The position numbers and the translations under genes are program-made. DNA of 64,000 nt from Ceratodon purpureus (taxonomy: Eukaryota > Streptophyta > Bryopsida > Pseudoditrichales > Ditrichaceae), in NCBI GenBank assembly GCA_014871385.1, contig CM026430.1, forward strand, positions 6,244,630 to 6,308,629, read 5' to 3'. The notes beneath the pieces are model-generated. The model searched no databases. It saw only the letters and a program-made list of their open reading frames with translations, and was not told the DNA's origin. Shown in pieces: positions 2 to 62,000 of this stretch (positions are counted from its first letter, which is position 1; each line of letters starts with the position of its first letter).

Positions 2-2241
2 GACCTTCCCTGGCAGGGTCTGTGCACTCATTTTGATGTCCCAGCCTTTTTGTCAATGGATGATTTCTTTTTACACAACGATGCCCATCATGTTCTGGAA
101 AACCTCAGCGTCAACCTTAATTCAGTTGTGGACAGTGCCAATCCAGAAAGTCAAACCCGTGGTCGGATCTTCTACACAAAAGAACCTGTGCAGATGAGAG
201 ACAGCACTTCACGCTCAGTCCTGTCATTTAGCACATCCTTTACGTTCACAATTACTCAAGAAGAAGGTGCAAACAGGAGTGGACCAGGGATGGGGACCAG
301 CACATTTGGTATAACTTTTGTACCAAAAAATATCTCCAAAATTGCTCATGTACACCTTACGGGCAAAAATGACCACATTCAAGGTTCAAGATGGCCTCAA
401 AATTACTTTGGGGTGGAGTTTGATACCTTCCAAAACCATCTTGTTAATGATCCAAGTGACAACCACATTGGTATTGTGAATAGTCTGGAATCATTGTATA
501 CTTACAATCTCTGTGGCCACCAAATAAGCCAATGTTCTTTTCCCTGGACAGGCAAATTTTACACACTTGGATTGAGTACAATGTTGCACCACCCTTATTA
601 CTTGAGGTATGGATGACAAATGGGTCACTAGGACATGGAATACTAAAACCAACCATACCAATCATCACAGTTCCCAAAATAGATTTAACTCATATTTTTG
701 AAGAAAACATGTATGTTGGATTTGTATCAATTTCTGGTTTGCACACAGATGTGTTTAACATCCAATCATGGAAGTTCACGAGTTATTTCATGAATGATAT
801 GAAATTGAAAATGACTCAATTGTCTATAAGAAATATCATGATCATAATTTTCTCTGTTTTTTGTACTCTATTACTTGCCTATTTGATGAATAAACATTGG
901 TGGCAACGTAAATGTTATGTAACTACAAAATATTCCAATTTGTTCCATCTTATGAGTCTACAAAAATTTGCTTACAAAGATCTAAAGAAGGCAACAAAGA
1001 ATTTCCATGAGAGTACCATACTTGGAAGTGGTGCATTTGGAATTGTATACAAGGCCACTCTTGAGATGTATTCAAACCATCCAATTGTTGCTGTAAAGTG
1101 CTTTAAACGCGTTGAGTCCAAAAGTGATATCCAAGCATTTTTAAAAGAAGCCTCTAGTATCAACCAAGTTCGTCATCGCAATTTGGTCCAACTACAAGGC
1201 TGGTGCTTTGAAGGAAATAACTTCATGCTTGTCTTTGAATACATGAGCAATGGAAGTCTTGATGAATGGTTGTTTCCAAAACGACGGAAACACCCTAATG
1301 ATTTTAAATACAAGAAGTTTGAGGGAGTGCTTCCTTTGACATTGCGTTGTTCTATACTTGGTGGTATTGCTGCTGCAATTGAATATCTTCATGAAGATTG
1401 GGTGCAATGTATTCTACATCGAGACATCAAGTCGAGCAATGTGATGTTGGATGATGATATGAATCCACATCTTGGAGACTTTGGACTTGCCCAACTTATA
1501 GACCATGAGAAGTTGGAGAAAACAACCTTAGCGGCAGGTACACTTAGTTACATGGCACCAGAGCTTCCCTATATTGGAAAAGCAACAAAAGAGTCAGATG
1601 TTTATAGTTTTGGAATACTAATGCTTGAAGTATTATGTGGCAAGCCACCACTAAATCAACAAGCTGATGGTATGGACGAAGATATATTTTTATTACAAAA
1701 TATATGGCGTGCACATGAAGCAAACAATATCTTGAGAGTAGTTGACCGCAATCTACTAACTCAAGATTTATACCATTCAAAAAATGCTAATGGCAATTCA
1801 ATGTCTACAAGAAATGGATGTTATAGACATGGTTCAAATGAATCTCTTGAGCCAAGCGCTAGTTTTACATCATCAACGCCATTGCTAAAATTTGAAGAAG
1901 GAAAGAAGATTATGAATCTCCTACATATAAGCATGATTTGTTGTTTGCCAAATTCAAAATCTTGACCATCTATAAGAGTTGTAAAGCAAGCAATTAAAGA
2001 ATTCGAAAACGCGTCTAATACTTCGATTACAATGGTAAATTTGATTTCAAATTTACCATCAAGAAGGCCAATTGGGCCATATTCACCACTAGAAGCTGAT
2101 ACACAAGTGATTCAAGATAGTTTCAATTTTTTAAGTAAACATCAACACAACTCTTACAAACGTAAGATACAATCACTTTTTACAGTAGCAAGAGTAGGCG
2201 GGGGAAGCACAATAAAGTGGACCACCAAGTGCAATATGTGA
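2..2241 (+). pseudogene. L-type lectin receptor-like kinase, 5' partial, disabled
   Basis: Membrane receptor kinase with an extracellular legume-lectin domain. The reading frame is open from the window edge, so the start and signal peptide lie outside. Up to about base 560 it encodes a lectin beta-sandwich (a GVEFDTF strand, then DPSDNHIGI), then the frame changes near 565-572, between GKFYT and WIEYN, which implies a 1-nt loss or 2-nt gain. The second frame finishes the lectin domain, crosses a membrane segment at about 830-890 and encodes a kinase with GSGAFGIVYK, AVKC lysine, HRDIKSSN, DFG and an APE-region. A TGA at 1963-1965 stands where the family has Arg in the conserved RPSIR motif; the same frame continues openly to 2241. 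There are no introns, as usual for this family. The last 15 or so codons are supplied by a transposon starting at 2197. Two lesions make a functional product unlikely. Confidence 0.85.
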
Positions 2242-5092: not shown

Positions 5093-7659
5093 TTACACCA
5101 AAAAATTTAACGCTGAAGCAGGAAACGTAATGGACAATATGCTTACAATCCACATAAAGGTCTTTTGAAATGTAGAACAGCAAAGCATGTGAAACATCCG
5201 TTAGTCAAAAGTAAATCAACATACATCGGACCCGGAGTTGCAGATCTGTGACTCTAAATCATCGGCTGATGCTCGTAAATTCCATGTCCTGGGAGGTGGG
5301 AGTTTTGCTGTTTAGTGTTGGAATTTGTTCCTCGGTAGAGGGGAGATGGCTGCTCCGGCCAAGGAGGTAGTGCAATACCAAGGCGACGCACGCGAGTCGG
5401 AGTAGCAAGCTACTGGAAGGATTCGCACCCAAGAAAAATTAGATTAATATCATGAGGCTTGATGAAAAATAAAAAAATAACTTTGAATAATATTTTATTT
5501 ATAAAATGTAAATTTAATTGATGCATAAAAATCTTGCCACATTATATATTCTTACCGTCTTTTGTGTAAATGTTTTGCAATGTACGTTATAGTATGCATT
5601 CATGTTAATTCTTTCAATTATAATATTTTTAAAATAAAATAATTAATGAATTTCATAAAATTACAATAATATGAGTTACATGAAATTGCTAAATACCTTG
5701 TTTTTGCAAATGAAGTGGATGTTTTTATTTTCTAAAGAATCATACACACTTATAATGTCTTCTAGAAAATAATTTCGTCTTGTTGTCAAAGGCGTCAATG
5801 AATTGTGCTGGTCGTTAGTTCACCATATAATTTCATTCAGTTTTTGTTTTTTTTTTAAATTATTTTTTTATATAAATTTAATTTTAAATTATTTATTAAA
5901 ATTAAATTATTCCTTTAAATATGTTCCTTTAGAGAAAAATTCATTCATTGGAACTTCTATAATTAAAAATGAACAACCATTGATGGTTTTATCAATAAAG
6001 ACCTGTGACATTTTTTAGTTTAAAAACATTATTATTTGTCATGCACCATAGGTATAAATTGAAGTGATATCTGAAATCTTACACTCTTCTAGTATACATG
6101 TTGTAGATGATGTGGATTGAATTTGGATTCAATTTGCCATATAAAATTGCAAGATTCTAATGTTTTATTCTTGAAAAAGGGATGATGAAAATTTCCTATC
6201 AATACATTAGAGATGAAATTCGTTTTCAAATATATTCAAATGAAAAAAAACTTAAAACACAAAGTTTTTTGAAATCATCATATAAACACATTGGTACCAA
6301 AAAAATCTTGAAAAAAGTTGATGTGCCCTAAAAAGTAGCTCAATTAATGACCCATTTGACCTCAAAAGAAAAAAGTGTCCAAAAGAGACCCGCGCACTAA
6401 AATGACTTCCAAACATTCATTACAACTTTGATTGACATGAAAAATCTACCATATAACTAGACTTCAAGAGAGATGATTACAACAATTTTTATTGGAAACA
6501 CATGTTGGTTGAAGGAAAAACAAGCCCTCAAAGTTGCAAATATTAAAATGCACAAAAAATATCCATAATTAAGACCTCTGTTTTCAAATGATTCCTAAAA
6601 ATTTAGTACATCTCAAATTAATTTAAAAAATAAAATTCTACAATAATCACACATCACAAGGAGAGTTTTTTTTAAAAAAAATTTCATTGAAATTGGACAC
6701 TACATGCCAAAGTTACAGGTCTTTGAAGGTGAAAGGTTCCAAAAAATGTTTAAAAAATGGACGATGAGGCAATTAGGGGTTAACCATTAATTTTCATTGC
6801 CTTTTACATTTGACATAAGTTCTAACAAACAATACATTTTGAGTTCCATTTGTATACATCAATAGTTTGCATTAAGAAATCAACGAATAGGAATTATTGA
6901 CAAATTTCCATATATAAATGCAATGGATAAATTTTTATTTATTTTTAGATGTATGTTCAATTTTGTATCAATTTATAAATCACCTAAAAAAATAGAGTAA
7001 TGAACTTGTGTTGATTTCTCATTACTTAATTCTACTTATGTCACATGACATGACACATTCAACTTAAAAATTGAAAGAAATGAAGTCAATACCATTCAAC
7101 ACATTTGAAACCCATTACATGAAAAAGAACTTAGCAGTGAATAAAGCATTCTAAAATTTATGTCCCCTACAAGTAGAATTTTCTGATATTAACCTAACAT
7201 CTAATCATGTGCAAAATATTACTATTGATGGTCTAAAGCGTTTTTTTACTTTTTAATCTAAGATGGTTATATAGAACCTAAATGTATCTCTTCTTCAATC
7301 TTCCATCTTTGATTGCTAACTATGATACACATGAGACTTCATGTCCATTTGAAGTATTTCTATTATGGCAATTTTTTGTCACTTTGACAATCCACAACTT
7401 ATTCATATTAAATCCAAAAATTATGAAATCATTTAGATTAAACTCCATTTCCAAATGCTCACAGAAATCAAACATTTTTCACAACTATATCTTGTTTCCT
7501 AACATAAGAATCCTCTAACTACACCTAAAATACATATTTTTACTATAGAGGTGGGAAAAACTTCCTTGAAAAAAGCCATACATAAACGAATCTTTACAAT
7601 CTATTCTAAATATATGCTAGATGAAAGAAAATCCCATTGCGTTGCATTTGACGTTTTCA
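5093..7659. other. AT-rich intergenic DNA
   Basis: Very AT-rich, with many A/T runs and short random frames. One more GC-rich patch at about 5220-5420 contains no frame I can support. Nothing else is recognisable by eye. Confidence 0.5.
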
Positions 7660-16820: not shown

Positions 16821-17209
16821 AGGTATACACACCTATGACCGATCACTTAAGCATTTCAGCATAGTAAATCTTGGGTTTTCAACAAGGAGTTATTTTTTGC
16901 ACGTAGTATCATAAGGTTCATGAAGAATGAGCATTTTTTCAAAATTAATTCAGTAAAATTCAAATTACTACAATTTTTTTTGTCCAAAAGTTAGTGTTAC
17001 CCATGATTGACATATAGGTGTACCAATGACTGACCATACTCAGATCAGTGATCAAACAGATTCCGTCACACTTACAGAGGCATTCTATTGGAGGAAATAC
17101 CCTAAATCTACTGTTCATCAATTATCCTTTACTAGTTTCCCATTGCTCTGGAATGGGGAAGCCTACTGATCCCTCATGGGTAAGTGATCCCTCATGGGTG
17201 TGTATACCT
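16821..17209. mobile_element. Stowaway-like MITE, AGGT family, copy 1
   Basis: Ends are AGGTATACACACC at the left and the complement at 17197-17209, flanked by TA on both sides (16819-16820 and 17210-17211). The 389-bp element sits in the intron between the third and fourth exons of LRR kinase A. Its left 150 bp align by eye with the element at 19288, including AGGTTCATGAAGAATGAGCA. It has no coding capacity. Confidence 0.72.
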
Positions 17210-18182
17210 TAGTGAGGGGACTTACAACGTGGTCAGTGTTGAGATGTTTCCGATTTCCGATGGCAAGATACCTGTAATTGATGCACTTTGGAGGGTCCTG
17301 TCGCCCAATCAACTATGAGGATAGTACACCTTAAAGAATCGTAGGATACAGACACCAACATGTGACTACAACTTTTGTTCTTGTTAGGTCTCCTACTTCA
17401 GAACAAGCTAGGGCATAGCCACAGCCGACCAGAACATAAGTGCGTAAGAGAGGGGAGATGCAACCAGGACGCAGACTTTGGGAGTGACAAATACTTACAA
17501 GCCGACGATGAACGCTGAGCAATCAATGTCAGACGAATTTACTTTTGGATGACAATTTATGTGAGTTAGGCACTGAACTCCCCGCCAATTGGGGTTTCCG
17601 TTAACGTATTCCTGCTCACATGGGAATATCTGTGAAGAGTTCCAGCCTGCCAAGTTACTCTCTGGATGGGGAGTGCTTGTATTCCATGCTCCCAGTATGG
17701 CTTGCATGGCATTTACTGCCAATTCGCACACCAACATAATCAGATGCCAAAGCCTTTGTTTCAAATAATCTTTGATGGCGTGCAACCAACAAGGTCAGCT
17801 CCACTCAAACCTTCTTAAACCAATACAAGTACTCAGAACATAAACAGAACATGGCCTTAAGTAGATACCGGTAGCTCAGTTAATTACGAACTCATGTTCG
17901 CAGGCAGAGAGTTGGTAAGATTTAAACTGACAGGACACTGGTGACAGATTGATTTTCAATTTGCTTCCTCAATTCTAAACCATACAAGGCTGTGACAGAT
18001 CATCCGAAGGAAAGACTACAGATTGGATTCAACTTACACTGGTAGGTATCGTACTGTTGAACTGACCAAGACGAGTTGGTGCCCAGAGGTGAAAGAGAAA
18101 GCAGCAGACCAACGAAGAGGAGCCGCTCAAGCGATCTGCACAGCTTCTTTTCACACATGATTACACCCATAACCCCTGGCAT

Positions 18183-19287
18183 CGTTATTCAGATTGCAAG
18201 ATCCAAAGAAAGGTGACAATGATAATAAACAAAGTAGTCTGATCTAGATATATAGTTCAGTTCATGCTGCTTGCTGCCAGGGAATGTTACCGGATAACCC
18301 AGATTACCATTAATGTCAACTGGCAAATGAGCCAAAATAGACCCTTATTCACAGGGTAATTCACCATATATTACCATTAATTTGTCAACTGGCAAATGAG
18401 CCAAAATAGACCCTTATTCACAGGGTAATTCACCATATTCACAGGGTACCAAAGTATGCACACTCATCATCTTGAGTTTAAATATGCAAATATATTGGGT
18501 ATGGATACCGACTGCCAATTGAGAACGCTGCCTCCCTAAGTTTTAGCATGAAAAAGACTTTGAAAAGTAGAATCTTGACCAAAAACTAGACATTCTCGGC
18601 AGTGCTCCAAATCTATAATAAAAAATTGTGAGAATGCCTCTGGTAGAACGCTTTAGTGTTCGAACGCTTTGCAGAACTTTGGGTGGGCTCTTGTAGAACA
18701 TCCCAAGTTGCGGGACATTGTTCCCACGTCGTGCGGGAGGAGTTCCCTGGACTAAAGTTGGGTTGTAGAACCCAAATTTGGCACAAAAAATCTTAAAAAA
18801 GAATGTAGAACCTTCAAATTGTGATTTCAGGGTTCTACATTTCTACATTCTAAAAAAGGGTCCTCCTCAGAGTTCGACCAGTACACATTAGTGTGCTCCC
18901 TGGTTTCCTTCCGAAGCTGTATCCTGTGCCTATGCCCATCCCCGTTTTACACAATATACCTTCATATTCCTGGGATTAGAGCATATGCTTGAGTATTGGT
19001 CCTTGGACGTTGCTAGGTTAGAGCCTGGGCAGAGGAAAGCACCGTCTGCTGGATAGTCCTAAAATTCCAATCAAGACAAGCTGGGATTCTTCACAGTTGA
19101 CTGTTCAACACAGATCTTCGTAAGTTGATGATTCTCATGCGCAGATGTATGCGGTCCGCTGGAATCTGTCCGGCAAATGGCACATGATGGGCCTTACTTG
19201 AAAATAGTACACCTTACATCATGACTACATACAGGTTTCCAAAAGCTGTACACTGATTAGTTCCAGGATCCATTTCAGGTGCATTTA
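18183..19287. other. Intergenic DNA upstream of LRR kinase A, with a short tandem duplication
   Basis: Contains two adjacent copies of a roughly 64-bp sequence (about 18307-18370 and 18372-18438, sharing GTCAACTGGCAAATGAGCC), about 125 bp upstream of the kinase A start, so in its likely promoter. Beyond that I see no gene. The stretch 18560-18900 has several GTAGAAC words but no clean inverted repeat. Confidence 0.55.
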
Positions 19288-19571
19288 AGGTAGACACACC
19301 TGTAACCGACAACTTAAAGCAGTTTAGCATATCAAAGCTTGGGTTATCGACAAGGAGATATTTTTGGTTCATAGAAAAATAAGGTTCATGAAGAATGAGC
19401 ATTTTTTCATGAATTATCTCCCAATATTGAAATTTGTACAATTTTTCAAAGTGAAAAGTACTTCCGAACCAATAGCCGATATATACAAATGAGGTACATC
19501 TATTCTTTCATAATCTAGGAATTAGAAGATATCGGCTATTGGTCATGTGTCGACTATAGGTGTGTCAACCT
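19288..19571. mobile_element. Stowaway-like MITE, AGGT family, copy 2
   Basis: 284 bp with ends AGGTAGACACACCT and, inverted at the right, AGGTTGACACACCT; TA at 19286-19287 and 19572-19573. It shares the left internal sequence (AACTTAAAGCAGTTTAGCAT) with the members at 16821 and 57922. It lies downstream of the rvt gene and upstream of LRR kinase A. Confidence 0.72.
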
Positions 19572-20012
19572 TAGGTGTGCTCTGTTCCTAAACCGAGGGA
19601 ACTCGTAATGATCGTTCATGGTTTCCACAAGAGCCACTATGTCAAATTCAACAAAATTTAAACCACAACTACATAACTGAAGCAAAACAACGAAAATCCA
19701 AGTTGGGAAAGCTAGTTGACTGCCATTCACTGGCTTCTTACAAACTCTTGTTGCAGAGTTGCATTTCATAATTTAAGATAACTAATTTACAGCTCGGTTT
19801 GAATACAGTACCGTAGTAACTGTGGAGGATGAGAAGAATTGGCCTCCTACCGCACCTCCATCCTTCAACATAGATCCTATAATACAATGATTACTAGAAT
19901 GAACATGATTTTTTCCCAATCGGCGATTGGAAGCTTTGCATCCAATCTGCCTGCTACCTTCAAGCACTACTCTCATAATTTAGTGTATGTTGACTTGTGT
20001 GTACAGATCAAA

Positions 20013-22700
20013 TTACTGCTCCCACCTCACCTTCCGACTCTTCCACACCTCCACCATCCCCATCGGCAAACTCTCGGGCCTCACCACCTCCAGGCCACCC
20101 CATTTCTTCACAACGCCTCCGCTGAAGCAGGCGACAACCCATCGCCAGTACGCATTCATGGACGACCAGTTAGCGGCAATTCCTTCCACGTCCGATTTCT
20201 GGAATTTACGTGACAGCTTACTCAGCTCCGCAATCACGTTCGATGGTACTGAATCAGGTCTAAGCACCAGTTCGGCATCCTCTGGGACTTTCAAGAGCTC
20301 CTCATAGACGTCCATCCATGACTCGAAACGCAGCTCGCGGTGCCGGGAGTACTCCTCGTACGAGAGAAACGGCTCGGTCTCGAGGGATTTGTTGCAGGTG
20401 TATGGCTTTGCGGTGGTGCCGTTCTCCCATTTCTCCTGCAACTGCGCGTAGAGCTCCTTCTCGGCGTCTAGAGCGTCCTCGAACTTCTTAGAGGGGTCGA
20501 CGCACAGGGCGTCGCGGATGACGTACTGTGGGATGAGAGGAGACTTCACTTCTAGCCCACCCATGGCGATGGGCCACAGGAACCAACCCGGGGGGATGTC
20601 GTGCACGCCGAACCGCTCTTGGATCACGTGAGCGAGGTATTCAATGACGGAGCCGCCGTGGTTTGGGAAGAGAGCGAGGTGGATGCGTTCGAGTGTGAGG
20701 ATGACCATGTCGATATGGCGCTGGCCGAAGCACTGGGCGGGAGGCGAGCCGAAGTTGTTGACGAAGAACGACGCGACGTATTTGTTGTATGCTTGCACCC
20801 AAGCGAACACCGAGTGCTCACATGCTTTCAGTTGAAGCTTCAGCTCGTCGATGTGGACGTCGACCTGAGATTGGTCGATGACGAACTGGCCAGACTCCTC
20901 GAAGTTCAGGAAACCCCACTTGATGGTCCCTCTTGGGAGATCTGGATGGAGTGGTTGCCCTACGGATACAGACCCCGTCTTCTCGTAGTTGAACTCTAAC
21001 CCCACAAGTTTAGTAAAGGAGCTCATTACCTGCCAAGCCTTCACGCACACCGTGGCGTCATTGTTCCATAACCAGAAGTCGTCGTGGATGCGGTAGAGGA
21101 AGAGCCCATCTGCTCTCTGATTGACAGCATAATCCATGCAGAAGAGGAGAACCTCGCCGAAGAGGCCGCTGAGGCTGTGACTCATGGGCACTCCGCGTTT
21201 GCGGATTTGGGGTGCAGCCATCGGCCCGTCGGAGCGGAACTCGAGCGGCGCGGATAGAAACTTCTGGAAGAAGGTGAGCCAAACCTCAGGCACGCCGAAG
21301 AATCTGAGAGCAGTCATTATGGAGCTGTGGGGTAAGCTCGGGCCGAACCAGGCGAAGTCGGAGCGCACAACGGTGAACTTGTCATGGATGGTGGTGTTGA
21401 AGAGGCATTCTGTGGTGAGAATGTGGAGAAGCGATTGCTTGATTCCCACGGCTGTCACCTCGCCAGGCTTCGCTCCTCCGTCTTCATCATAACCAGCTCC
21501 TACTTCCTCGAGGCTCTCGGACAATTGGCTCATAAAAAACATCTCTCGCTGCTTCGCTCGTCTCGTCTCATCGATCGACGTGGGCCCTTCGCCCCACTTC
21601 CCTCTCCGCTCGTCTTCCAGGAAATACTCTCGTCTCTCCTTTTCCTGCTTGGAGAGTGGCTTTGCCGCCCGCTTCCAGGCGCTTGAATTGAAGATACTCT
21701 TGAAGTGTTTTCTGAACTCAACTGCCCACTCGAGGCCAATCCAGTGCAAAAAGATGGCCTGCAGGATATCCTCATCCATGTAAATTCTGTACTTTCCGTT
21801 GATTTGTCTCCGCATCTCTACAGGAATGGCGTCCATGGCCGAACCGTCAGGTATCCAAGACCACGATTCTAGCGATGAGAGATGCATGTTGAGCACGTCT
21901 GTTACCTCAGTGAGGATCGTGTTGTTCTGAGTAAACTCCTTGAGAGTTTCACGTTTCTCGTTTGATAGAAGGTCAGCAACCAAGAGGGAGGATATGACTG
22001 ACTTGAGGTTGCGGACATACAATCTTCTATCACGGAAGAAGTTGTTACCAAATAATCCAATATCGTCACGCATGAGGGCAAGGATTTCCTTCGCTGCCTT
22101 TGAAGAGAAGAGATCGTCAAGGTCGGCAAGTATGGCAACAGTGTCGGTTTCTTTAGCAGTGAAGACGAGGGATTCGAACTTGGCGCGCTGCTCGTGCATT
22201 TCCTTCCTTCCAACCTTCTCAAATGTGCCGTTTGACATCTCACTTGCGCTGAAAGCCTCGTTGTTGCCCGTTAATTTCTGTTTATCTGATGCCTTCTCAG
22301 GTATGGAAGCGGTGCTTGCGATCCACTCGCTCAGTAGCCTTCCGAACAGCTCCGCATACTCGTACTTCGCCTTCTCCGTGTCAAGGGCTTTTGTGAAATC
22401 AGTTTCCCACTCACGCAGAGTTGCCTCGCCAATGCAGGGGTCGTGCTCGGCCTGGACCAGAAATTTCCTAACGCTCTGGAGGTAGTCCGCATTACCGAGG
22501 CTGGAGGAAGAGTCGGCGGAGCCAAGCCAGGAGTTGACGCCATCCAGGAGTATTCGAACCCTCTCCCGTGAGCTACTAGCAGCGCTGAGTGATGAAAGAA
22601 TCCTCTCTCTGTGGGAGTTGAAGTCCGTGACTTGCTTGGAGATCCCATGAAGCTTGGTCACAGTGATGGAGTTCAGGGTTTGAGAGAACGACGACGACAT
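20013..22700 (-). CDS. rvt: Cellular reverse transcriptase-related protein (rvt family)
   Basis: Single-copy RT-like protein of the rvt class (Gladyshev and Arkhipova), which is not part of a retroelement; family members polymerise NTPs or dNTPs in vitro and their cellular role is unknown. 895 residues in one uninterrupted exon. The N-terminal 430 residues are mostly helical and charged (coiled coil, SFTLN-like start, several KE-rich blocks). The RT core has motif A Asp448 in VVRSDFAWFG, motif B GVPMSHSLSG from residue 503, and motif C YRIHDDFWLW with Asp540 and Asp541, so all three catalytic aspartates remain. A helical C-terminal extension of about 300 residues follows, usual for rvt. The start at 22700 is chosen over an in-frame ATG at 22895 because the latter lies in a spliced leader intron, and 22700 has an excellent context (GCCACCATGTC). 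No LTR, integrase or endonuclease is nearby. Confidence 0.9.
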   Translation of the reverse strand: MSSSFSQTLNSITVTKLHGISKQVTDFNSHRERILSSLSAASSSRERVRILLDGVNSWLGSADSSSSLGNADYLQSVRKFLVQAEHDPCIGEATLREWETDFTKALDTEKAKYEYAELFGRLLSEWIASTASIPEKASDKQKLTGNNEAFSASEMSNGTFEKVGRKEMHEQRAKFESLVFTAKETDTVAILADLDDLFSSKAAKEILALMRDDIGLFGNNFFRDRRLYVRNLKSVISSLLVADLLSNEKRETLKEFTQNNTILTEVTDVLNMHLSSLESWSWIPDGSAMDAIPVEMRRQINGKYRIYMDEDILQAIFLHWIGLEWAVEFRKHFKSIFNSSAWKRAAKPLSKQEKERREYFLEDERRGKWGEGPTSIDETRRAKQREMFFMSQLSESLEEVGAGYDEDGGAKPGEVTAVGIKQSLLHILTTECLFNTTIHDKFTVVRSDFAWFGPSLPHSSIMTALRFFGVPEVWLTFFQKFLSAPLEFRSDGPMAAPQIRKRGVPMSHSLSGLFGEVLLFCMDYAVNQRADGLFLYRIHDDFWLWNNDATVCVKAWQVMSSFTKLVGLEFNYEKTGSVSVGQPLHPDLPRGTIKWGFLNFEESGQFVIDQSQVDVHIDELKLQLKACEHSVFAWVQAYNKYVASFFVNNFGSPPAQCFGQRHIDMVILTLERIHLALFPNHGGSVIEYLAHVIQERFGVHDIPPGWFLWPIAMGGLEVKSPLIPQYVIRDALCVDPSKKFEDALDAEKELYAQLQEKWENGTTAKPYTCNKSLETEPFLSYEEYSRHRELRFESWMDVYEELLKVPEDAELVLRPDSVPSNVIAELSKLSRKFQKSDVEGIAANWSSMNAYWRWVVACFSGGVVKKWGGLEVVRPESLPMGMVEVWKSRKVRWEQ

Positions 22701-22800
22701 GGTGGCTACGAAAGAGACCTCAAACCCACAACTACGTCCGTCGATGATGCCCAAGGATGACCAGCAGATCTGCTCTGCCCCTGGCACCGACGAACTGGTA

Positions 22801-23094
22801 CCTAGATTCACATAATACGAAGGAAATGCATTACGTTTCAAAACATAAGCATGACCTAGAAAATCGCTACCAACACCATTCGACAGCTCTGACAAATCAC
22901 AAGATTCACACTTTTCAAGCTAACCCAGTTAAAGAGAAATGTCCTAAACCCTGAACCCTAAACATCCAAACAGAGGACAATGTGCACAAAGAACGGCATT
23001 CACTGCTCTACAGCAAAGCTATTCACACGATCGAAATAATGCTGGATTGGTCAGAGGATAATAAGGAAGTAGGTTAGGAAACTGTGATCTTACC
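22801..23094 (-). other. Intron in the 5' leader of rvt
   Basis: A GTAAGA donor at 23093 and an acceptor ending at 22802 (TAG then GTACC) bracket a 292-bp intron upstream of the rvt start. It contains two telomere-like motifs on the minus strand, TTTAGGGTTCAGGGTTTAGG (22944-22963). A spliced leader agrees with this being an expressed host gene rather than a retrocopy. Confidence 0.55.
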
Positions 23095-23689
23095 TCTAGT
23101 GAATGCGCATCAGAATTCTCCCCTATCGTCCAAAGCTTTCAAACAATCCTCCACATGCTCCACCGACAGTAGCTTCAGTTTCCAAAATGCAAAGTACATG
23201 ACAAGCAATGCCTGTGTGCTCGGCATTTGTAGTTCCCGCTCCTGGCAAGTGTGACTTGCAGCACACTCGCACGCCGTGGAACACACTCTTACATGCTATA
23301 TCAGAGCATCGGAAGCCAGATCAGGTCAAGCATTGCCCCGATTGTCAACCTTACTAGTATTGTGCCCAGCGGTATGTATCCAAGTTGACGCAAACTTCTC
23401 CAGCCGATTCGGAGTCTAAAATTAATAGACCAATTACCGACATTGATAGCAAGTGAGCGGAAGCACTTTCAGCAACGCTTGCACACAAGGAGCAATCCAA
23501 CTTACTGTAGACCCAAAGTGCGCAAGACTAATGTGAGATACCAAACTAGTCCACGAAGGAAATCAATACATCACGTCTTGAACTCTTTCCTCTGCCAATG
23601 AGCAACACTAGAGAAGGTATATTGAATTTGATATTGCTGTGTTTTTCTATGTAGACAATCGTTACTAGAGATAACATGGAGACATCTTT

Positions 23690-24362
23690 TGATGGAAAAT
23701 CAGGTTGATTCGGGACAATTTTTATCATAGTTCAAAATGGTGATTTACTTGGTACGTGCCTGGTCAGATAGTTCTAGCATCCTCGACAGACCAGATAAGA
23801 GTTTCAAATATACATATAAGTCGTTGAAGTGCCTTCCATCAAGCGTCACAGTAAACCGTCCAATATTACTGTTCTTCAAGACAGGCAGACATAGGAGCCA
23901 CACCTTATCGACATGCTCTATGGTACACATGGAATACATCCAAACAGTGTCAAACACAATGTTCGCAACAACACTTCTTGCAGGCAATCAAATTGTCAAG
24001 GTACTTCCCATAAAAACTGTTGGTACAATGACCTTGAACGTGGATCAACTGCAATTTATGCATCTGTTCAGGATCCCATATTTTATCTAACAAGTGCTTC
24101 AAAGCAGATTTACAAGTACGTGACATACACCAAATCCAGAGCCTAATAATTTTGAGATGAATCGCTTTTTCCCAAATTATGCATCTTACTCTTCTTAGAG
24201 CAGATCATTCCGACAAAGTATTAGATAAAATTTTCACGTTGTAGCAATCTAAATGACAGTTATAAATTTCCATTGCCGTTCTTGACTCGTCCTTGGGCCT
24301 CGAGTCTCGATGGAAAGATCAAGTTTCACAATGATCCAGCCATCCCAAAGAATCACCTCCTT
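23690..24362. repeat. Duplicated 3' flank of LRR kinase B
   Basis: Aligns by eye over most of its length with 38720-39303, for example GGTGATTTACTTGGTACGTG and CATCAAGCGTCACAGTAAAC in both. Together with the exon at 24363-24770 this shows that a piece of the kinase B locus was copied here. Small indels separate the copies. Confidence 0.8.
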
Positions 24363-25190
24363 TCACCTTCCGATCAAGTCACTCAGCTCAATCCTTGTAT
24401 CTGTAGTCGACGAGCGCTCACAACTACCTCCTCTTCGAGATATTGATTTCACAAACGAAAAATCGCCTTCTTCTTTCACAGTGGCATAAACGTTGTCGAC
24501 AAAAGCCGCCACTCTCAATGACTCTAGGTACTTCTCATCCTTTCCAGGACTCAGCACCACAACCTCCGAATCTATGTCTCCATGCAACATGGCCACAACC
24601 CGAGCCATGGTTGGGCGTTGCTCTGGTGCATCTTGTAAGCAAAGCAGAGCTATTTTGATCATCCGTTGCACTCTTGGCTTTTCTTCTTCTTGTAAAATGA
24701 GTGTGAGATCAACCAAGTCTGATAGGTTTCCTTGGCCACCGTGAAGCTCCCAAGCCTGCATGGAGAGGATTCATTAGACGCACTTTAATTACTCTGCTGA
24801 AACAGAAGAGGATTGATCCTGACAGCACCTTCTCCAGGCTATTTACTGATCAAATGCAGGAACTGTGGATAACACATATGGTTATAGACATAAACCTAAT
24901 TAGTCACAAGAAGCTGGATCTTCAAGACAACATCTATATCCATGCGTGCTCAACATGAAGTCGGAATGGAACCGAGGTTCTCCTGCGAAATTTCCAAACA
25001 CGAAATTGCAATTACATGAAGTGCAGAGTATGGAACTTACACTTCGGTGATCCAAGTGAATTCACTTTATCTGTACCGAAACCCTAATTTTCATCCCATT
25101 TGTGCTATCATAGTGGTTGCCATCCACGACATGTGTAGTAAAGAAATTAACAAGGGCTCGTTGACGACACTACACAGTAATATTTTTAAT
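24363..25190 (-). pseudogene. Partial copy of LRR receptor kinase B (last exon plus intron pieces)
   Basis: 24761-24363 encodes the last kinase exon: AWELHGGQGNLSDLVD, subdomain XI with EQRPTMARVV, and a Ser/Arg-rich tail ending IELSDLIGR. It has no kinase N-lobe, TM or ectodomain next to it. Instead, 24790-25045 matches the intron of kinase B at 42535-42785, and 25045-25170 matches the intron at 43010-43140. The intervening exon (42788-42964) and all kinase exons between are missing, so the copy has undergone at least two internal deletions. It preserves the original C-terminus that kinase B itself has lost. Too incomplete to encode a receptor. Confidence 0.82.
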
Positions 25191-25981
25191 GTCCGGCAGG
25201 TTTCAGGAGGGGAGAAGTATGAGAATTTAATCTCCTCTTGAAACTTCTTGGAGTATTTTCTGCTATGAAAACAGAAAATGGTGTGCAGCAGGAAAAGAGG
25301 AATGGTTATTTTAGTGAGCCACTTACTCCAAAGGTGTTACTGTGATAGAATTTTCTATGTAAAGATGTGATATTGTTTTGTCAACTGTGAACCAAATTAT
25401 TGGCAGCAGTGAGTTAGTGGAGGTTTGTAAAGCAAATGTACAGACGTCAGACTAGTAACTATTCTCTGTTGTGCAACTGTCCCAAGAAAGAGACCGTAAT
25501 TGAATGAAAGTTGGACTCAGAATCCGTTTGTTTGAAGCATAGGATGAAGTTTGCGACAAGTCATTGCCTCATTGCAAACCGCACTGAAAGTCTTATGCTA
25601 CTTGAGCCTACTTCTAAAGTAGTACAGTTGTCTACGACATTCAAGTATTCACTTACTAGAGACTCACACCCTTCAGTATTTCTCACACCCTTGTCAATGT
25701 GTATTTCTCCACCTGAAGTATCTCAGAAGGTAATAAATCAAGAGTGTTGTAATCTTTACACTCTCATACATGCTTATTACAAATCCAAGCTACAGATCCA
25801 CTATCCTTATACATCTGAACCTTTTGTAGCTGAAATGTTTTTTAGATATCGCCAGTGCCTTCGCACTTTGCTTTCAAAGTCTCTATCAACCATTCTTGGG
25901 CCACCTCCGCTTCATGGTCTGAAATGAATGTATCGTGCTTGTTCAAATATATCCTGGTATATTTGATAAAACCAAACAGCC
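25191..25981. other. Intergenic DNA
   Basis: A 138-codon plus-strand frame at 25511-25927 shows no motif, and its composition gives no support as a gene. Nothing else recognisable. Confidence 0.4.
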
Positions 25982-27501: not shown

Positions 27502-30500
27502 ATGTGTAAATCAATGAAGTTGGCTCCAAAGCATGCTATTGTGTCAGAGGCAGCATTCAAACTTTCCGTAAAAGGGGCTGAGCTCTACACTTTAGAGATA
27601 TCCGAAACGAATAGCAATGGGTTGTCAAGCTCAATTCCTACTGAGTACCAAGATTTGGAGAAAGTTTTCAGTGAGGAATCAGCTAATGAACTACCCAACC
27701 ATGGACCATTTTACATGAAAATCGAATTTAAAGATGGACAAGAACCTAAGAATACCGGACTACAACCTATGTCTCCCATAGAATTAGAAGAACTAAGAAG
27801 ATATTTGGAAGAGCATTTGGGTAAGGGATGGATTCGTCGATCCAAATCTCCCGTATCAACCCCTATAGTTTTTGCCAAGAAAAAGGATGGATCTATAAGG
27901 GTGTGTATTGATTATCGAAATCTCAATAAAGTGACCATAAAAAATCGTTATCCTCTTCCACTTATCCTAGAGTTAACGGACCGATTAGTGGGAGCAAAAA
28001 TTTTCACAAAATTGGATGTAAGAACAGCATATCATCGTATAAGGATGGCACCGGGCCACGAATATAAGACGGCTTTTAAGATCCGTTATGGCTTGTTCGA
28101 ATATCTAGTAATGCCTTTTGGTCTTACAAACGCTCCAACACAATTTCAATCTCATATGCAGAGTATCTTTTTGGATCTATTGGACATTTCAATTGTCATT
28201 TATTTAGTTGATATTATAATATTTTCAAAAAAGATGGACGATCATCAAAAAGTAGTACGAGATGTTCTTCAACGACTTTATGAACATGGGCTCTATGTTA
28301 AAGCTTCTAAGTACCAGTTTCACTGTCAATCAGTGGAATTTTTAGGGATGGTTGTTTCATCCTATGGGTTAGAAATGTGTGCAGATAAAATACAAATTAT
28401 TAAAGATTGGCCAATACCAAAAAAATTAAAAGAAGTTCAGTCATTTTTGGGCTTCGCAAATTTCTACCGTCGTTTCATACCCAATTATTCATGTATAGCA
28501 GTTCCTCTTATAACTTTAACACATAAAGATCAACCATTTTATTGGAATTCTGAAGCTGATAATGCTTTCAATGATCTCCGGGTAAGATTTTGTCGAGCAC
28601 CACTATTATTGCATCCAGATTTCGAACGACGCTTCGTTATTGAAACTGATGCATCCGATTTTGCTACATGCGGAATTCTTTCTCAACATGGCGATGACGT
28701 CCATCTACATCCCTATGCATGTAGAAGTTCCAAAATGTCTCCAGCTAAACATAATTACGACATTTATGACAAAGAGTTTTAAGTATTGTGCATGCATTTC
28801 AGGATTGTCGTGTTTATTTGGAAGGGTCACCGCATGAGGTGAAGGTTATTTCAGACCATAAAAATCTTGAATATTTTTTAACTACCAAACACCTAAACCG
28901 ACGACAAGCCCGTTGGTCAGAATTTCTATCAGCATTTCACTTCGTTATTCAGCATCGACTAGGTTCTATAAACATGCGAGCTGATGCTCTATCTAGGCTA
29001 CCTGGTGTCACTGATCAAGACTTGCAAGAACCAAGACCGTTATTGAAATTGGTTGCCTTAGAAACTTGTGAACCAGTTTGGAGGGACGACCAAATCATGG
29101 AGCATTTTCGGCTCAAGTCAACTACAGACCCTACAATGCGGCCTATATTAGCATATTTTGAAATGGAGCTGACAAAGCCCCATCAGACATTCGACATCGT
29201 TTCCAATCCTATAGCATGAATGAAGGAATTATGTATTTCCGTGGACTTGTTTTTGTACCAGACGACCATGAACTTCGCCGTCAAATTCTCAGATCACGAC
29301 ACGATTCTCCAAGTGCAGGTCATCAAGGTCGTGCAAAAACACTAGATTTGGTAGCAAGAAGGTTTTATCGGCCATCACTTCGAGGATATGTCCATCGATA
29401 CGTCGACGGATGTGATTTATACCAAAGCTCAAAACCTTCTCAACATGCACCGTATCGGTTACTGCAACCAATTCCAGCGGCTAATGTACCTTGGAAATGC
29501 ATTTCAGCGGATTTTATTGTAAAATTACCTCCAAGTAATGGTTATGATGCAATATTAGTAGTGGTGGATAAAAACACGAAACTAGCTCATTTCATAGCTA
29601 CTACGGAGAAAGTTGATTCTATTGGAACTGCAAACCTCTATCTTCATCATGTTTGGAAACACCACGGCTTACCCGATGAGATCATTTCCGACCGTGGACC
29701 GGATTTTGTTTCTAAATTCACAAGGAGACTTTATGAGCTTTTACGCATTCGACCTTGTTTGATAACGGCTTTCCATCCTCGGGCTGACGGCCAGACGGGG
29801 CGCGTCAATCAGATTCTGGAACAATATCTTCGCATGTTCACGACTAGGCAGCAAGATGACTGGGCGGATCTCTTGCCAATAGCAGAATTTGCACATAATA
29901 ATGCACTTCACTCGGCCACAGGGCTATCTCCATTTTATGCGACGTACGGATATCACCCCTCTATATATTTTGCAACTTCGACAATATCAACAGTCCCAGC
30001 GGTGGAGGACAGAATTCGGTATCTCCAATATATCCATGAAGGAATTAAAACTCTACTTCAAATTGCTGGAGACCAAGCAAAGACAAAGTATGATAGTGCC
30101 ATGGCATTTCCATCACGTTTTTAAAGTGGGTCATGATATGGTGCTGCTTCGCCATGATCATATCTCTTTATCAGTCCCTTCGAAAAAATTGACATCAAAG
30201 TTCCTAGGACCATACCCGATTATAAGTAAACTCTCTGACGTTGTATATCGCCTAAACTTGTTACCTGAGACACTACGAATTCACGATGTATTTCACATCT
30301 CGCTATTAGAAGCATATCGACAGGACACCATTCCAGGGCGAAAGCAGCGACCACCTCCACCCATTATAACAGCCGATGGTGAAATTGAGTGGGAAGTGGA
30401 TAAGGTGCTCGCTTCAAGACGGTTTGGACGATGGAGAAAATTGCAATATCTTGTTTCATGGACTGGATATGGATTGGAACAAAACTCTTGGGAACCTGCC

Positions 30501-33362: not shown

Positions 33363-33664
33363 CACTTTGGCAGGACATCCCCCACGCTGGGACTTACTAG
33401 GTGCAACGAGCGTTTTTCGGAGAGGCAAGGTTGATGAGCCCTTAGTTTTTGGTTTTTTATTTTAAAATTCCCAAGGGGGTCTCCATGAAGTAATTCGTAG
33501 CCGCAGGCCCCATTTTTGAATTCAAAATTACCAAAAATGGCCTCGGGGGGGTCCAAATTGAAAATTTCAGGGTTTTGGAAGAAAAAAGCCAACCAATGGG
33601 AGTGGCTCCTAAAAACGCTCGTAGCACTAGGTAAGTCCCAGCGTGGGGATGTCCTGTCCAAGCC
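33363..33664. mobile_element. 302-bp MULE-like MITE with 9-bp target duplication, copy 1
   Basis: Perfect 9-bp direct repeats ATAATATCC flank it (33354-33362 and 33665-33673). Terminal inverted repeats of about 50 bp: left CACTTTGGCAGGACATCC, right the complement of GGCTTGGACAGGACATCC, continuing inward through CGCTGGGACTTAC and ACGAGCG. A 9-bp duplication with long TIRs points to the Mutator superfamily. The interior is non-coding. Nearly identical to the element at 58366, in the same orientation. Confidence 0.85.
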
Positions 33665-38540: not shown

Positions 38541-38719
38541 TGACCCAAGTGGTGTGCATCAGTCAGTTACACGAAGATACAAGTGTATGTAAATAGGCCA
38601 CAGCCACTACCTCAACCTATCACGACCAATAAAACCAGCCGAGAATGGCAAGTTCCTTGCTGATGTTAACAAAGTAAAAAAAAAGTGTTTCAGATTCAAG
38701 GGTGTTTTGTGTCCAAATT

Positions 38720-39303
38720 CTGGTGAAAGATCAGGTTGAATCGGGACAGTTGTAGTTCAAGATGGTGATTTACTTGGTACGTGCCTGGTCAGATAGTTCT
38801 AGCATACGACCAACCAGACACATGAGAGTTTCAAATATACAAAGAAGTCGTTGAAGTGCCTTCGATCAAGTGCCTTCCATCAAGCGTCACAGTAAACCGT
38901 CCAGTATTACTGCTCTTCACGACAGGCAGAGATCATAGGAGCCACACCTTATCGACATGCTCTATGGTACACATCGAATACATCCAAACAGTGTCAAACA
39001 CAATGTTCGCAACAACTCAGTTTTTAGGCAATCAAATTTCCAGGATACTTTCCATAAAAAAAAGTTAGTTCATTGACCTCGAACATGATCAACTGCAATT
39101 TATGCATCTGTTCAGGATCCCATATTTTATCTAACACTTCAAAGCACATTTACAAGTACGTGACATCAGCAAGGAAACATCAAATGCAGAGCCTAATAAT
39201 TTTTGAGATGAATCGCTTTTCCCAAATTATGCATCTTACTCTTCTAAGAGCAGATCATTCCGACAAAGTATTGGATAAAATTTTCACGCTGTAAGCTAAA
39301 TGG
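38720..39303. repeat. 3' flank of LRR kinase B, duplicated at 23690
   Basis: Collinear with 23690-24252 up to the word CTAAATGG at 39296-39303, where the inversion at the end of kinase B begins. Confidence 0.8.
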
Positions 39304-39317
39304 TTTCGTTTGTGAAA

Positions 39318-45356
<6,039 letters not shown>

Positions 45357-58365: not shown

Positions 58366-58665
58366 CACTTTGGCAGGACATCCCCACGCTGGAACTTACC
58401 AAGTGCTACGAGCGTTTTTCGGAGGGGCAGGGTTGATGAGCCCTTAGTTTTTGGTTTTTTATTTTAAAATTCCCAAGAGAGTCTCTCTAGAGTAATTCGG
58501 AGCCGCAGGCCCCATTTTTGAATTCAAAATTACCAAAAATGGCCTTGGGGGGGTCCAAATTGAAAATTTCAGGGTTTTGGAAGAAAAAAGCCAACCAATG
58601 GGAGTGGCTCCTAAAAATGCTCGTAGCACTAGGTAAGTCCCAGCGTGGGGATGTCTGTCCACGCC
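58366..58665. mobile_element. 300-bp MULE-like MITE with 9-bp target duplication, copy 2
   Basis: Flanked by perfect TCCAACCAG repeats (58357-58365, 58666-58674). Same ends and interior as the copy at 33363 with few differences. Located between the convergent phytocyanin and WRKY genes, about 350 bp beyond the WRKY stop. Confidence 0.85.
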
Positions 58666-59013: not shown

Positions 59014-62000
59014 TCAACGGGTCCACTTTCCAAAAGCTCCACGCTGTGCTACATCCTGATTTCTGGAGTTAGAAAGATCTACTTCCGGTTCGGTCGACGT
59101 TTTTTCATTAAAAATGAAGGAACCACTACCACCTGGTATTGAATCAAGAGCATTACCTTCATCCCTTTGCAATCCGTTCAGGTCCTTAGACATAATAGAA
59201 CTAATGGCAGCTGCTAACGCAGCACTAAACTTCGGATCATTCGTAATCGCATCAGTGGCACTACTCACAGAACCTACAAAGGAATCCAGTTTCTTCACAC
59301 CTTCCTCACCAGCACACAGAAACGACGCCATCTTCGCAGACAACTCTTGCTGCATCTCCTCGTGCCTTGCTTGACTAAAACTAGAACCTAATGAAGAGGT
59401 GACTGCAACTTGTGTATAAGAATTTCTTGGAAAAGTAGGATTTGGTCCTTGATAACGACCATTCCCTGGATGTGATAGCATATGAAGATCCACCATCTTC
59501 GTTGCAGGACCAGCTTCGTTTCTTGCGGGGAAGTGGGTTAGGGTTGCAGGCCCAGGAGTTGCACCCGAGTCTCCCAAGCGGAGGCTTAGCTGGGTGGTAG
59601 GATCTCGTGTGAAGTCAAGTGTGATGGTAGGCAAAGATGTGGAAGCATAGGTGGAGCTATTCTCTGTTGAGCCCAGCATTTGGGGATCCCGTTGCAGGTA
59701 ATGCTCAGGGACTCCAGCCATGCGTGCGACGTCACTCGTTGTGGACCCCGAGAGAAGCATGCTGGCAGCAGCAGAGGTTGTGGACGCCATGGCTGAGGCT
59801 GCTTCAGAAAGAGGGTGGTTGTGTGCGCCTTCGTATGTTGTTATCAGAATCGACGAGTCGTCTGCACATCTCTGAACCTGCACATGAGAAATTTGAAAAA
59901 GGTTTTATGATCATCAACACTTTGGCATCCACTTAAAGCTCTAGGGATGTCCAGCGGACCACATTCATGAGTTACGGGTTGCTTCAACAAAGATAACAGT
60001 GCAGAGCTGCATATAACTTAAATATTATCGGGGTCCATTTTGGTAGAGCTGATGCCATGCATTAAACATGGAGAGTTTGTTATATCCTATGATATTGACT
60101 CTTCAATAAAATTATGGTGTCTATCTTTTTATACCTTTATTAATATGATTGAAACCCTCACTCGTTTAGGTTGCGTGTTGTAGTGTGAAGACAGAGCGTT
60201 TATATGAGAACTATATGTCTACACATTACACAATCTATAAAGTATGTCATGGAGAATGCGTGGAAAAAGCATTTACAGTACTGAGAAGTGCACCATTCAT
60301 TACAAAATTCAGGGCAGTATTTCATAGATAGTTCAGTGCAGCCTATACCTGCTTCCGAACAGGACACCCCCGGACCACAGTGCACCGGTAATAAGCCCTT
60401 GGACACGGATTCCCCTTGGCCATTTTCTGACCATACTTCCTCCACTGGCAACCGTCGCCCATCTGCATCCACATCATAGCCCAACATGACCCCAATCAAT
60501 GTGCAATCCATACTTAACCAATAACCTAAACCTTCAATTTAGTCAACAATTCTCCCTCTCTGCCTCACATAAATGACCATTAGGTCAGTTGGTCTCACCG
60601 TTGTAGAATCTAAGCGCGTCCGGACCAGCACACGAGCCTTCCGCACAGGCGCATGATCTGTAGTTGCATCTACTTTAAGCAGGTTCTCGGTGCTAAGTTT
60701 TTGCACCTTGGGAGCAAAACCAGCTGTGGCTGCATCCTCGCTATCGCTAGGGAGAGATCTTTTGGAGCTAAAACCAGGTGACTCGTCACCTGATGAGGCC
60801 GAAGGCGACCTGTTGAGCCTCCCTCGATGAGAAGATATTACTTCTTTTTCTAACCCAGCAGAATGATACCTCGTTGCGATGGCATCGCTCTCCATGTGAG
60901 TATTGTAAAGTTCTTCATCTACATTAGCTGTGTGAGTGATCTCTTCGGGTGATGATGCATCTCCTGTTTGTCTACTGTCGTGATTAAGAGGACTTGAGAG
61001 CTCGGAAGAGAGTCTTGAGAGCACGCTTGCATCCGCTTCCTGCAGTTGGCCACATACTAAGACAGTTGGAAGTTGGAACGATACTAGTGCTAACTTGAGT
61101 ATTAATTGTTTTAACGTGAGTTTATTTAGGGGTCTAGGCTTTGATCACATTATCTCATTGATGAGCAATGTTGAAGCTAATTCATCAAGAGACTATTCAC
61201 TCAGAAATGGAGGGCAGTACACTGTGTTCAAAACTAATACAGCAACTACGATCAAGGTATGCTCTCACCTCCTGAGATTGGATCCGTCGTGGCTGAATTG
61301 GTTGTGATGAGCTTATGAGAGAGTGCATGTTGTGATTCTCTTTTAGAACTAGAGCCAGCTCGTACTTCAGCCGCTCATTCTCCTCGCCCAACCGGCTCAA
61401 CTCCAAATGCGAGTTCACGAGCTGACAAATCACAACGCACATACACACTCAGATCAATACTTCCAAGTCCAGGCTAGACGCCTATCTTAATGCACGGTCC
61501 CAGAACTTTAGTCCTCCTAACTCCCCGAACTTTAAGCCCTCCTAACTCAAAACAGACCCACTACTTCACTGCTTCACAAGGATCGAACAACCAGTGCTTC
61601 GTGCTAAAATCCAACATTCCAGCTGATTCCATCTTTGGTTCGCCTTGGCACTGACGCTGATTATGAGCAAAGTTACCGCGAAGAAGCGAGCGACCCCGTA
61701 ACAATGGAAGGTGCTAGGTAGTTGATTACGAAGTACTCCTACATGAGTACTAGAACACTACTTCTACCCAAAACTTTACTCAATGATCTGGAACGGTACC
61801 ACTGTTGGCAGTAACACGGTACTATCATGACGCTGCTGTTGCGCCTGCAAAGGTGATACGTGGAGGATGGTACTGTACCTGGTCACGCAGCCCCGACGCA
61901 GTCGGCTCCGGTGACGATGTTGTTCGATGCCTGTAGTCAGCTTCAGACTGCACAGCAATAGTGGCACCTTTGGTCGCCTCAACCTGCAACAATACTCAAC

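Follow-up and report, generated by a model that had tools for sequence, protein, structure and literature searches.

Reverse-transcriptase-related cellular genes of the rvt class were reportedly described by Gladyshev and Arkhipova in 2011, with mosses among their hosts. The abstract of that work is said to give a preference of rvt for ribonucleoside triphosphates (NTPs), and the title of a 2018 paper by Yushenova and Arkhipova reportedly names protein priming and multimers. The host function of rvt proteins is unsolved, and a plant rvt gene of fungal origin makes the question testable. This report concerns such a gene on the reverse strand of a 64,000-nucleotide stretch of the moss Ceratodon purpureus (contig CM026430.1, positions 6,244,630 to 6,308,629), here called the window. 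The best overall explanation, to which we assign a probability of roughly 0.6, is that the gene was derived from a fungus, duplicated, and kept by selection, and that it encodes a template-free polymerase with a role in stress or defense.

Activities of rvt proteins have been published for other organisms. According to an excerpt of PMC3520738, Neurospora rvt acts as a terminal transferase, and inhibition of protein synthesis strongly induces it. A passage of PMC10680173 describes rvt catalysis as non-templated, the catalytic residues as required for relief of stress such as starvation, and horizontal transfer of rvt as frequent. Three rvt paralogues are reported from Anabaena sp. 90 in a passage of PMC3610870. 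A first-pass annotation, made from the DNA letters, had put the window gene forward for an undescribed activity. This proposal is not upheld, because rvt biochemistry, non-templated polymerization, and a stress phenotype have been published for other organisms.

Gene structure and family

The gene is a single open frame of a length far beyond chance. Its 895 codons translate without a stop or intron, as the first-pass annotation had stated, and in 300 shuffles of its 2688 letters open frames reached at most 270 codons. The start MSSSFSQ is common to P0002, P0003, P0005, and P0006, which supports the assigned start, and no ATG lies in frame upstream of it as far as 22895. The start context, GCCACC ATG T, had been called strong; it is good at -3 but lacks a G at +4. 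A spliced leader upstream of the coding sequence is a prediction. The putative intron has GT...AG ends at the positions claimed for it (AG/GTAAGA ... TCTAG/G), and five upstream ATGs fall within the 207 nt taken as predicted exon 1.

20013..22700, reverse strand: rvt coding sequence, 895 amino acids, intron-free; a C. purpureus protein of the same length is 98% identical
22802..23093, reverse strand: predicted leader intron, 292 nt, GTAAGA...TCTAG, from sequence alone

The gene almost certainly belongs to the rvt class, an already described kind. This identification is based on a match to the PADLOC family RT_UG37, on catalytic aspartates found in 300 of 300 aligned proteins, and on the known range of rvt hosts, and it agrees with the first-pass view of an intact, catalytically complete host gene outside any retroelement. 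The RT_UG37 match (E 9e-72, 240 bits) covers residues 12-723 on profile positions 9-657 of 778, and the next-best PADLOC family reaches E 3e-6. All 29 family proteins scanned, from moss, liverwort, and fungi, match RT_UG37, and the match spans most of the protein in all eight whose ranges are shown. DRT9 is the sole PDB sequence match of the family profile up to E 0.1 (E 9e-6). At the level of sequence similarity, the RT_UG37 match ties rvt to the unknown-group (UG) and defense reverse transcriptases (DRTs). In Pfam there is a weak match to RVT_1 (18.2 bits, below the cut-off of 29.6), and a group II intron reverse transcriptase is not indicated by the curated maturase model TIGR04416, which scores 16.5 bits against a cut-off of 300.

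Relatives were also sought in other sequence collections and in the literature. Two pattern scans of genome contigs gave 29 and 16 pattern matches and a scan of viral contigs gave 42, with no relative confirmed. With tblastn, P0001 matched nothing among plasmids and phage records and P0113 nothing among plasmids; P0116 matched 14 plasmid records, which covered 12-27% of the query and of which 12 carry the annotation ltrA. No paper equating rvt with UG37 was found, which is weak evidence, as the UG/Abi survey and the founding rvt papers lay outside the search. The Fusarium genes RVT1 and RVT2 were rejected as candidates; an excerpt of PMC4920403 presents them as ordinary retroelement genes and not rvt.

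Active site and possible activity

The active site residues are conserved throughout the family. Conservation was counted over 300 aligned family proteins, the window protein included. The aspartates named as catalytic by the first-pass annotation (448, 540, and 541) are each Asp in every one of these proteins.

21327..21368, reverse strand: motif A, ...SDFAWFGPSLPH; D448 at 21357-21359, G453 at 21342-21344
21168..21203, reverse strand: motif B, RKRGVPMSHSLS; P-M/I-S-H replaces the usual PQG, from the family alignment
21066..21095, reverse strand: motif C, YRIHDDFWLW; D540 at 21081-21083, D541 at 21078-21080
22221..22700, reverse strand: N-terminal helical region, about residues 1-160, in the AlphaFold2 model
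21453..21683, reverse strand: variable insert, about residues 340-416, poorly modeled, following the fingers hairpin and preceding the catalytic palm
22122..22124, reverse strand: codon 193; Asp here, Tyr in 293 of 300 family members

Motif A reads D-F-x-W-F-G-P-S-L-P-H, with F452 in 297 and G453 in 299 of the 300 proteins. Residue 506 in motif B is Met in 182 and Ile in 97, and H539 of motif C is kept in 296. In the AlphaFold2 model the N-terminal region has helices at residues 2-40, 44-59, 65-84, and 92-131. Residues 1 to about 160 fall outside most alignments to solved polymerases, in which the aligned rows are mainly 156-875. The predicted local distance difference test score dips at 360-370 and 400-420. 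We take the insert to be a candidate for the RVT "loop 2a" between reverse transcriptase motifs 2 and 3.

The conserved residues suggest how the enzyme may work. The window protein is probably competent for catalysis, judging from its sequence. In reverse transcriptases the fifth residue after the first catalytic aspartate is an aromatic gate against ribonucleotides, and the glycine at this position, G453, would explain the use of NTPs. The near-invariant tyrosines 304, 404, 641, and 851 are candidate priming residues, as is Tyr193, which is Asp in the window copy. Judging from relatives and from these residues, the product would consist of a helical bundle and a polymerase and may assemble into multimers. 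It might polymerize nucleotides with no nucleic-acid template, possibly with a tyrosine of its own as the acceptor, and would accept ribonucleotides owing to G453 at the blocking position. By analogy, non-templated and NTP-tolerant synthesis by the window protein is slightly favored. A role of moss rvt in stress or defense is tentative and falls somewhat short of even odds; our guess is either a stress response linked to impaired translation or defense against foreign nucleic acid.

The enzyme could be a dedicated defense protein, that is, a eukaryotic UG/DRT polymerase directed against viruses or transposons like the characterized bacterial UG enzymes. The RT_UG37 match of all 29 proteins and the DRT9 match of the family profile favor this explanation, and every experimentally characterized UG enzyme is implicated in phage defense (PMC12632851). 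On the other hand, the reported phenotypes of eukaryotic rvt concern translation inhibition and starvation, and no accessory gene or noncoding RNA was identified next to the window gene. No function for UG37 was found either among the 20 of 121 literature matches listed, which were unrelated uses of the letters. A dedicated defense enzyme is rather unlikely on this evidence.

Selection and duplication

The lack of damage and the conservation of the protein support selection at the protein level. Along the branch of the window gene (0.25 changes per site), under neutrality, 12.4 stops would be expected and none is seen (P ~4e-6). The protein keeps 117 of 121, 87 of 88, and 36 of 37 columns conserved at the 95%, 98%, and 99.5% levels, respectively, the columns being taken from 110 non-moss rows. 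It differs at 14 residues from the same-length protein of a second isolate, and these differences avoid conserved columns (p 0.01). The first-pass suggestion that integrity implies selection thus gains protein-level support, and both the polymerase active site and the protein sequence appear to be held by selection.

All 14 differences lie within residues 70-395, with none in the last 500. This clustering exceeds the effect of conservation (p 3e-5 and 1.5e-4 with two weightings) and perhaps reflects a mosaic haplotype or gene conversion.

Mosses have at least two rvt paralogues in Ceratodon and a relative in Physcomitrium. The homologue listings were not exhaustive, and counts and closest matches hold among the matches listed. 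The closest is the second-isolate protein, M758_9G065900 (P0002), with 98% identity over the full 895 residues, on a 16.8-Mb contig. A C. purpureus paralogue, KC19_1G316800 (P0003), is 71% identical and lies on a 29.0-Mb contig, and the Physcomitrium patens relative is 64% identical. There is one rvt copy in the window, and two paralogous clusters carry the name Ceratodon. We take M758 and KC19 to be two C. purpureus isolates, and the locus tags 9G and 1G to stand for chromosomes 9 and 1. Given the 14 residue differences, the window DNA probably comes from an isolate different from M758. A duplication in the Ceratodon lineage, after the gene was acquired, would have placed the window copy on the chromosome-9 contig and the other on the chromosome-1 contig.

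The chromosome-1 copy could be the active moss enzyme, with the window copy having another or a waning role. The existence of the paralogue would allow this, and codon 193 points the same way: both C. purpureus sequences of the window locus have Asp, and the chromosome-1 paralogue lacks this change. However, the window copy keeps the catalytic triad, has no stop or frameshift, and is of equal length in the two isolates. In addition, its branch from the shared node is 0.24-0.25, compared with at least 0.31 for P0007 and P0003. A subfunctional or nonfunctional duplicate is improbable.

Probable fungal origin

The moss proteins group with Pezizomycetes, a class of cup fungi, in all five maximum-likelihood trees, whose outgroups held only fungal or bryophyte sequences. 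In the tree of 38 rows the sister of the mosses is P0010 (99/97), followed by P0009 with Maublancomyces gigas (99/96) and then P0027 (95/91). The 15-row group that holds all of these (100/98) also includes Tuber, Choiromyces, and Morchella. The unlabeled rows P0004-P0007 and P0022 group with the mosses. A tree rooted with basidiomycetes supports mosses plus Pezizomycetes at 100/99. Placement of the mosses outside Ascomycota was rejected by the approximately unbiased (AU) test (p 0.0005). A second such test gave p 1e-8 and is confounded, since basidiomycete-like rows and P0063 also fall between the groups. With the best-sampled set, a grouping of the Pezizomycete-side rows without mosses (9 of 38 rows) had p 0.011.

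Nesting in Ascomycota next to Pezizomycetes points to horizontal transfer from fungus to moss, and on sequence grounds a fungal origin of moss rvt is very probable. The ancestor of Ceratodon and Physcomitrium would have acquired the gene from an ascomycete of, or next to, the Pezizomycetes. Placement of the mosses within rather than sister to Pezizomycetes is less sure than their placement in Ascomycota. The first-pass annotation had described rvt as patchy in occurrence and present in mosses; the presence stands, and the tree adds gain by horizontal transfer to mere patchiness. The transfer may already be described in Gladyshev and Arkhipova 2011.

Several observations weigh against the reading of a functional rvt gene from the Pezizomycete side. 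P0010, the nearest row to the mosses, carries no label. A Pezizomycete clade without mosses was not rejected with two other sets (p 0.088 for 11 of 32 rows and p 0.134 for 4 of 18 rows), and Ascobolus (P0237), one of the Pezizales by name, falls outside the group, its branch being long and of weak placement. The first homologue listing lacked Morchella, which a later search found, and no Neurospora or bacterial rvt was among the 120 matches listed in each of three homologue searches. The loss of the near-invariant Tyr193 from the window copy belongs here as well.

Vertical inheritance would require an rvt gene in the common ancestor of plants and fungi and its loss in most plants. Losses are easy, and an excerpt of PMC3610870 reports rvt genes in several kingdoms. 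This history conflicts with the rejection of mosses outside Ascomycota (p 0.0005) and of a moss-plus-liverwort clade (p 1e-5), and with Maublancomyces being closer to the moss proteins than to Tuber or Morchella. It is very unlikely.

A liverwort may have gained rvt separately. The protein P0298 of the leafy liverwort Calypogeia fissa, on an 8.9-Mb contig, groups with the Leotiomycete Phialocephala (100/100), with 59% identity to it and 43% to the mosses. Passages of PMC7062687 list C. fissa among hosts of Ascomycota and name the liverwort symbiont Hyaloscypha ericae, which the title of a reference there assigns to the Leotiomycetes. This association fits a transfer, and it equally fits a contaminating symbiont. 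From the sequences, a second fungal transfer is the somewhat more probable of the two. A wider proposal is that bryophytes made at least two separate gains of a UG37/rvt polymerase from fungi. The donor of the mosses would have been on the Pezizomycete side and that of a leafy liverwort on the Leotiomycete side, in both cases a fungal class known for entering living cells of the plants concerned. The plants would thereby have gained an otherwise lacking defense or translation-stress response by a non-templated, ribonucleotide-using, protein-primed polymerase. This proposal is speculative and, as a whole, unlikely; if true, the repeated gain argues that rvt activity is useful to plants.

Two other records are placed unexpectedly. 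P0188, recorded under hornbeam (Carpinus fangiana), is 45% identical to Macrophomina and likely comes from a fungus in the sample. P0103, from the budding yeast Trichomonascus, is placed inside Aspergillus-like fungi.

Genomic context

No mobile-element part could be assigned to the gene. No long terminal repeat (LTR), integrase, or endonuclease belonging to it was found in the window, no long repeat pair brackets it within 17000-25500 (the largest spanning pair is 27 nt at 74%), and a tblastn search of the 64-kb window with the protein found only itself. The first-pass annotation had likewise seen no LTR, integrase, or endonuclease, and had named flanking retroelement termini as evidence that would count against a host gene; none was found in 17000-25500. 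The nearest retroelement pieces found are of gypsy type.

27502-30124, forward strand: gypsy-type reverse transcriptase/RNase H and integrase frames; CpG not depleted
532-1965, forward strand: lectin-domain receptor kinase frame
59014-59883, reverse strand: frame that includes the end of a WRKY domain

Local domestication in mosses of a polymerase from a long interspersed nuclear element (LINE) or R2 is highly implausible. The structure of such elements was not found, with the weak RVT_1 match as the sole Pfam result, no endonuclease, and neither repeats nor further copies of the gene in the window. Hundreds of fungi hold full-length relatives of the same architecture, and likeness to R2 at about 10-13% identity is possible for any large reverse transcriptase.

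Fungal contamination of the assembly is scarcely credible: the tree position among fungi and the GC content at third codon positions (0.69, against 0.30, 0.42, and 0.29 in three other window frames) would fit it, but plant-type genes (the lectin kinase and the WRKY end) lie in the same window, the Ceratodon relatives are on large contigs, and Physcomitrium has a relative too. CpG observed/expected is 0.93 in the rvt gene and 0.84 and 1.04 in the gypsy pieces, which does not set the gene apart, and the measure was not used. Contamination was set aside, as were vertical inheritance and the domestication of a LINE or R2 polymerase.

Other repeats and a match to a spliceosomal RNA are present in the window. 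Upstream of the rvt gene, 23687-25180 is a broken copy of a tract that recurs at 38718-43141, 15-18 kb further on, with 84-94% identity piecewise. A 302-nt repeat pair (33363-33664 and 58366-58665) is 94% identical. A U2 spliceosomal RNA match lies at 5345-5478 on the reverse strand (57 bits, above the gathering score of 46).

Comparison with known systems

The window gene resembles other rvt genes in its length of about 900 residues, its three catalytic aspartates, its lack of mobile-element parts, and the main occurrence of its kind in fungi. It differs from them in having at least two paralogues in Ceratodon in place of the usual single copy, in the origin of the moss gene beside Pezizomycetes, and in the loss of Tyr193 from the window copy. 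The value of the locus lies in this fungal origin, in the possible second transfer, and in the link to UG37. Physcomitrium is a haploid moss in which gene replacement is easy, and for this reason rvt function is testable in mosses.

The closest solved folds are those of the R2 and LINE-1 non-LTR polymerases, which the AlphaFold2 model resembles over residues ~162-883 at about 11% identity. Unlike these elements, the window gene has no endonuclease and is unrepeated in the window.

Among the UG enzymes, the likeness is greatest to RT_UG37 (PDLC03776, described as DRT), where the match extends over the N-terminal helices and on into the polymerase. RT_UG37 belongs to PADLOC, a library of prokaryotic anti-phage defense proteins, whereas the window gene is a plant nuclear gene, and its last 170 residues are outside the best stretch. 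The class 1 UG/Abi polymerases (AbiK, AbiA, and DRT3b) and DRT9 are only about 10-14% identical to the window protein. PQG is the usual motif B of reverse transcriptases and is present in DRT9, in contrast to the P-M/I-S-H of the window protein. A 2025 preprint placed telomerase in the unknown-group reverse transcriptases (PMC12632851). A valid UG37 link would make rvt a eukaryotic lineage of this group alongside telomerase.
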